From Lachnospiraceae bacterium (GTDB lineage: Bacteria; Bacillota; Clostridia; Lachnospirales; Lachnospiraceae): 64,000 nt of DNA. Shown here one piece after another: positions 63,268-64,000 of the stretch. The translations under genes and the position numbers were made by a program. The notes beneath the pieces were generated by a model. That model was given only the letters and a program-made list of their open reading frames with translations. It was not told where the DNA came from and searched no databases. How positions within the stretch are numbered: the stretch's first letter is position 1; each line of letters opens with the position of its first letter. The stretch is from the NCBI GenBank assembly GCA_024694625.1, contig JAILJP010000032.1, positions 16,717-80,716 of the forward strand, in the 5' to 3' direction.

Positions 63268-63471
63268 TTAAATGCTCATGTCGAAATTGCCGCCTACAGA
63301 AGGATTGACGGATAACTCCATGCCTGGTGCGGAAGAAATCATCTGTGCAACTCCTGCACCTTCCATCTTCATCGCATCCATTGACATATCCAAAACGGCA
63401 TAGCCTACGTCGTTGTAGGTCTGGGCACGGGATAAATATGTAGCTAATGCGGCAACACCTGTAACATCCAT
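63268..63471 (-). CDS. YjfB family putative motility protein
   Basis: MDVTGVAALATYLSRAQTYNDVGYAVLDMSMDAMKMEGAGVAQMI; promoter TTGTAA-N16-TATAAT upstream. Confidence 0.75.
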   Translation of the reverse strand: MDVTGVAALATYLSRAQTYNDVGYAVLDMSMDAMKMEGAGVAQMISSAPGMELSVNPSVGGNFDMSI

Positions 63472-63687
63472 AGACTCACCCCTTTCATCAGATAATTACC
63501 TAACTATATTATAACACGATATATCCCCGTTACAACAAATTTTTCATAACCACCATTAATGGTATCTTTTTTCCCTCCCCCTTGGGGTTGCCCCTCCCTC
63601 CCCCTGCCATTTTGCAAGGATGTTAGAAACTCTTGATGCTAAATACGAGCATCCTTTTTGTGTCCGGACAACAATTTACAGTTCGAA

Positions 63688-63993
63688 GCAAGTGTGCGCC
63701 AAAGACAAAGACTTGTTGTTTATTTATAGCGCTTTTCAAAACTCAAGGTGAGCCGGCTTAAGTCACCGTTCGCTAAGTAAAAAGACGAAGCATGTTTTTA
63801 GATGTCGGCACCACACACAATCTCAGTCCATTTCGGTTATGTGTTCTCGGTGCCGTCCATGGCACCTCGTACCGACATCTGTAAAAAACATGCTTCTTTT
63901 TTACTAAGCTCACTTTAAAGCGCTCGGCTCACCTTGAGTTCTGAGAAAGCACATATTTAATTTACTCAAGTCTTTGTCAGGCACACATCTTGC
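63688..63993. repeat. Long nested inverted repeat (~306 nt), candidate MITE or structured ncRNA
   Basis: Collinear perfect stems: GACAAAGACTTG/CAAGTCTTTGTC, AACTCAAGGTGAGCCG/CGGCTCACCTTGAGTT, GAAGCATGTTTTT/AAAAACATGCTTC, AGATGTCGG/CCGACATCT, GGTGCC/GGCACC. Confidence 0.75.
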
Positions 63994-64000
63994 GGCAGAA

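Follow-up and report, generated by a model that had tools for sequence, protein, structure and literature searches.

The 64,000-nucleotide stretch of Lachnospiraceae DNA analysed here (the window, from genome G000) ends inside a large palindrome, one of many copies dispersed in its genome. We consider this repeat to be, on balance, probably a non-coding, MITE-like palindromic element that encodes at its apex an RNA of the TwoAYGGAY/CsrB type, capable of binding CsrA. Two features are new. The CsrB-clan RNA TwoAYGGAY forms the tip of dispersed, multi-copy palindromes that are gained and lost, and each giant version has outermost arms of ~35 bp that match each other but vary from copy to copy.

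A sequence-only reading of the window had described a nested hairpin at its end. Folding bore this out: the segment 63650-64000 has an MFE of -141.5 kcal/mol against -79.5 ± 5.1 for shuffled sequences (z = -12.2), and 0/100 shuffles folded as well as the native sequence. The complementary blocks reported there, including AACTCAAGGTGAGCCG/CGGCTCACCTTGAGTT, and the internal GGTGCC/GGCACC hairpin are present in the sequence, and the ORF listing contains zero ORFs of at least 100 aa across the palindrome, in keeping with its description as non-coding. The hairpin is real, but the proposed extent of ~306 nt was too short, as the palindrome starts near 63553 and passes 64000. The suspicion that it was the edge of a larger repeat continuing past 64000 was right in part; the repeat is cut there by the contig end, position 64000 being the final base of contig C12 and the assembly breaking inside the repeat. 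The end of C12 overlaps contig C73 by 94 bp, and contig C120 fits the same overlap equally. The outer arm of C12, however, matches the arm of C73 best (score 35.0; runner-up 23.0), and two congeneric genomes have the C12 genes next to those of C73, in the same order. Because outer-arm match and synteny both select C73, we took it as the continuation of C12. By self-alignment, the joined element is a palindrome of about 576 bp, of which 63553-64000 (no strand assigned) lies in the window and ~130 bp continue to about C73:222. Its MFE is -324.5 versus -159.2 ± 6.4 for 25 shuffles, which is approximate because our own shuffling procedure was used. Copy-specific arm matching placed an outer, C-rich hypervariable arm at 63573-63608 (no strand assigned) and its G-rich partner around C73:172-208, outside the window; the arm pattern itself matched at C12:80302-80322 and C73:172-192. 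The neighbouring 67-aa gene (63268-63471, minus strand), which we take from its sequence to be YjfB-like, belongs to the context and not to the element. According to the flanking ORFs, it is transcribed away from the element, as is the ORF on the C73 side.

The tip of the palindrome matches the TwoAYGGAY RNA family (RF01731) at 63761-63920 on the minus strand over the full model (1-168), scoring 49.6 bits (gathering 43), and both terminal AYGGAY loops read ATGGAC. Hairpin 1 (63849-63866, minus strand), supported by sequence, Rfam alignment and loop statistics, is the GGTGCC/GGCACC stem noted above. Its minus-strand hexaloop ATGGAC (63855-63860) is closed by C-G, that is, CANGGANG, the loop motif of the RsmE consensus (PMC6849547). 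As in CsrB-type RNAs, GGA is presented in a hairpin of the CANGGANG consensus, in the window by hairpin 1. The Rfam alignment places the second AYGGAY loop, also ATGGAC, at 63826-63831 (minus strand), where the stem is degenerate in the window copy. The "long structured RNA" suggested by the sequence-only reading therefore holds to the extent that a known family, TwoAYGGAY, is contained in the palindrome, but the TwoAYGGAY/CsrA-type hairpins and the strand had been missed. E. coli CsrB, which served as a control, is a member of Rfam clan CL00106, and so is TwoAYGGAY. A match to the plant miRNA MIR2646 in Rfam (47.9 bits versus a gathering score of 245) was rejected as a generic long-hairpin match. 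TwoAYGGAY was first described with its function unassigned (Weinberg et al. 2010, PMC2864571), and CsrA binding has already been proposed for it (PMC4333381); this idea is therefore not new. The same genome also holds a second, different TwoAYGGAY subfamily at C87:1-129 (L044) and C88:1-129 (L059), both cut by contig ends and scoring 68.5 bits, above the family of the window.

The apex structure varies by compensatory changes while its loops are retained. In 20 copies from genome G072, 98.9% of the cells in 44 predicted apex pairs are paired, and two-sided changes are found in 17/44 pairs. The covariation score of 0.258 compares with 0.095 for shuffled and at most 0.069 for slid controls. Both apex loops hold C-A-N-G-G-A-N-G, the CANGGANG type, in 20/20 of these copies. 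A GGA-loop hairpin was found on the RF01731 strand in 85 of 95 copies (14 genomes) and on the opposite strand in 2, although recruitment of these copies by the RF01731 model or by similarity biases them toward GGA loops. The variation of the stems around the loops is the independent part of the loop evidence.

The palindrome is not a single-copy sequence lacking relatives, the outcome that the sequence-only reading had named as fatal to its claim. A BLAST search found ~13-16 copies in the genome, some cut by contig ends; they are mostly 93-96% identical, with one divergent copy on C67. The element comes and goes between genomes as a mobile element would: the window copy and the copy on C26 correspond to orthologous intergenic regions without the element in G001 and G004, where the flanks of the empty sites are 71-83% identical to G000, and in the reverse case, 18 bp of G000 stand at the position of a ~628-bp insertion with a copy in G004. 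Genome G067 has three near-identical copies, each between different genes. We infer that the element probably transposes actively. The element is short, non-coding and multi-copy, has inverted-repeat ends and is present or absent at orthologous sites, as expected of a MITE, one of the options raised by the sequence-only reading. Of the other MITE features, no clear target-site duplication was seen at the insertion sites inspected, where species divergence blurs the element ends, and no transposase was found in these analyses. No longer version with separated ends, i.e., an autonomous partner, was detected by BLAST in the G000 genome, which is 88% complete. Pre-existing palindromes as insertion targets were rejected, as a search with the arm consensus gave element arms only and none unoccupied. 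A pattern scan across named genomes gave no matches. We also observed oppositely oriented TwoAYGGAY pairs a few hundred bp apart in G015 (C47:139778-140356 and C33:53805-54433), G067 (C123:25808-26314) and G408 (C152:70082-70502). In the left flanks of L111-L118 and L122 of G067, the TwoAYGGAY palindrome and another long hairpin (TTCAGCCGTGTATCATATGC...GCATACGATACACGGCTGAA) are fused; these composites have ends that resemble TAAACTGNAGTTTA and lie at or adjoining gene stop codons.

The majority of TwoAYGGAY copies lie within palindromes of ~220-390 bp, and giant palindromes (~490-770 bp) were found in G000, G001 and G004, as well as in G079 and G406 (another genus). The giant forms have only short landmarks in common, yet they are self-complementary along nearly the whole rod. 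Four G000 copies have both of their outer 35-bp arms on one contig; arm agreement among them is 0.90 within a copy and 0.64 between copies, and the true arm pairing ranks best of 24 in this small test. The adjacent 80 bp of eight G000 copies agree at 0.94 (0.98 without C26). Likewise, the arm scores of eight single-contig copies in G406 are 91-144 within and 15-71 between copies; L188 and L190 have a core score of 315 and an arm score of just 30. Plain drift of old copies was rejected as the source of the arm differences: the core of the element is only ~73% identical between species, below most flanking genes, and is therefore not frozen by constraint, yet copies within the G000 genome are mostly 93-96% alike with arms at ~65%. 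A host origin of the C-rich arms of G000 was also rejected, as they were not seen at the empty sites. We hypothesize that arm-to-arm copying, by template switching in a cruciform, probably keeps the outer arms alike. In L186, L188 and L198 of G406, a short inverted repeat extends into the flanking host DNA with scores of 42, 32 and 31, compared with a maximum of 26 between copies. This pattern was noticed post hoc, after looking, and on a preliminary view it would be consistent with one side having been copied onto the other. The flank repeats lie 320-470 bp from the palindrome centre and include the last codons of neighbouring genes; the one at L188 is TCTTAGGAATCTAATCACAAG versus TCTTAGAATTCTAATCACAAG.

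By a query protein with 59-72% identity, the named genomes closest to that of the window are the Lachnospiraceae MAGs RUI243, RUI453 and Red_deer_3_mag_118, whose names suggest a Lachnospiraceae bacterium that is probably uncultured and from a ruminant gut. The genome of the window encodes CsrA (C63:3335-3493, E = 4.8e-25). Of 397 Lachnospiraceae genomes, RF01731 was found in 65 (58 genera), and CsrA scored above the cut-off in 208. CsrA is present in 62/65 genomes with RF01731 and in 146/332 of the others (odds ratio 26, p = 3e-16, with kinship ignored). Two of the exceptions, G212 and G401, have flagellin, and for this reason CsrA may simply be missing from their draft assemblies; the third, G363, has one RF01731 match and neither CsrA nor flagellin. 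CsrA and flagellin occur together in 206 genomes, CsrA alone in 2 and flagellin alone in 7. Because their presence is nearly identical, CsrA and motility are inseparable in this association, which could instead reflect motility or lineage. In a class-wide sample, RF01731 was found in 36/391 genomes, and it is multi-copy outside Lachnospiraceae too, e.g., with seven matches scattered across the single contig of G475. Extra divergent CsrA-like ORFs were seen in G072 (C54:10614-10763 and C54:11975-12139) and in G015, G067 and G023. They adjoin a flagellin gene, and one of those in G072 lies ~1.2 kb from a TwoAYGGAY copy.

If the element acts as a CsrA-binding RNA, a copy would be read from the minus strand of the window, via a neighbouring promoter or by read-through, and its ~600-nt transcript would adopt a rod-like fold with a junction and one or two hairpins as its cap. 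In the cap hairpins, GGA would be exposed to CsrA within CANGGANG-type loops, and the many dispersed copies would jointly titrate the protein, an effect that CsrB achieves from a single locus; an alternative outcome would be that nearby transcripts are placed under CsrA. Transcription, CsrA binding and titration by the element are predictions. We tentatively extend this model to the possibility that the mobile giant palindromes of Clostridia constitute a distributed CsrB, with their arms regenerated at each locus by side-to-side copying that includes host DNA. If this were true, each jump would add sites that bind CsrA and would tune or parasitise the CsrA-flagella switch, and each copy would carry its own matched barcode.

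The repeat might instead be purely selfish palindromic DNA, in which single-stranded hairpins serve as the recognition site of a putative transposase or replicase and resemble CsrA sites only secondarily. Its long DNA-level palindrome, present in many copies and variably between species, would suit such a role, and the matched arms together with the inverted flank repeats indicate copying at the DNA level. A promoter search of the element also revealed no clear promoter (five promoter-like sites versus 2.7 expected). We nevertheless regard this explanation as unlikely: the loops equal the CsrA consensus base by base and on one strand while the stems vary, RF01731 tracks CsrA-encoding genomes, and the genome search revealed no autonomous partner. 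Even the folded recombination site of integrons, which the sequence-only reading had offered, shares a long, imperfect and internally asymmetric palindrome with the element. This reading is extremely improbable, given that Rfam assigns TwoAYGGAY and that the copies stand singly between unrelated genes, and not in a cassette array as required for attC.

A cis-acting element, which on insertion near genes brings their transcripts under CsrA or adds a strong terminator or RNA-stability structure without any titration in trans, would agree with the cis-regulatory type of RF01731 in Rfam and with the copies of G067 directly at gene ends. Inward-facing intrinsic terminators were also found at 29/197 palindrome edges versus 3/191 control windows (outward-facing, 7), which could stem from insertion into the intergenic space that follows genes or from a true preference. 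The G000 copies, however, lie in mixed gene orientations between unrelated genes, and copies differ between species, which makes an exclusively cis-acting role quite improbable.

Compared with known systems, the tip of the element is TwoAYGGAY (PMC2864571) by its full-length match above gathering and both AYGGAY loops. The Rfam model spans just ~168 nt, whereas here the RNA caps a palindrome of ~580 bp that is dispersed in many copies, a setting not described in the papers we found that name the family. With the CsrB/RsmZ sRNAs, the element shares GGA-presenting hairpins, the CsrA/RsmE consensus and clan CL00106. Unlike these sRNAs, which carry many sites at one locus, it offers one or two predicted sites in each of many dispersed copies and is a giant rod present or absent between species, for which CsrA binding is predicted. 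QMITE1/2 of Coxiella burnetii are MITEs, some of which serve as sRNA genes (PMC5896051), and they, too, are non-coding, have inverted repeats, measure a few hundred bp and occur in many copies. In contrast to QMITE1/2, the RNA part of the element belongs to the CsrB clan and spans many Clostridia, the outer arms are copy-specific, and no target duplications were seen at the sites read. REP elements are also dispersed intergenic palindromes, but they measure 20-40 bp (PMC3733652), compared with palindromes of ~220-770 bp with a conserved RNA tip here.

Many bacteria have no known CsrB-like antagonist of CsrA, and Bacillus and Campylobacter use the protein FliW (PMC4894983). A many-copy RNA family with CsrA-type loops that is gained and lost in flagellated Clostridia makes the question of an RNA antagonist directly testable there. 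TwoAYGGAY, an RNA family so far without an assigned function, gains a genomic setting, and in their matched hypervariable arms the copies preserve a natural record of the changes that long palindromes undergo in bacterial chromosomes.
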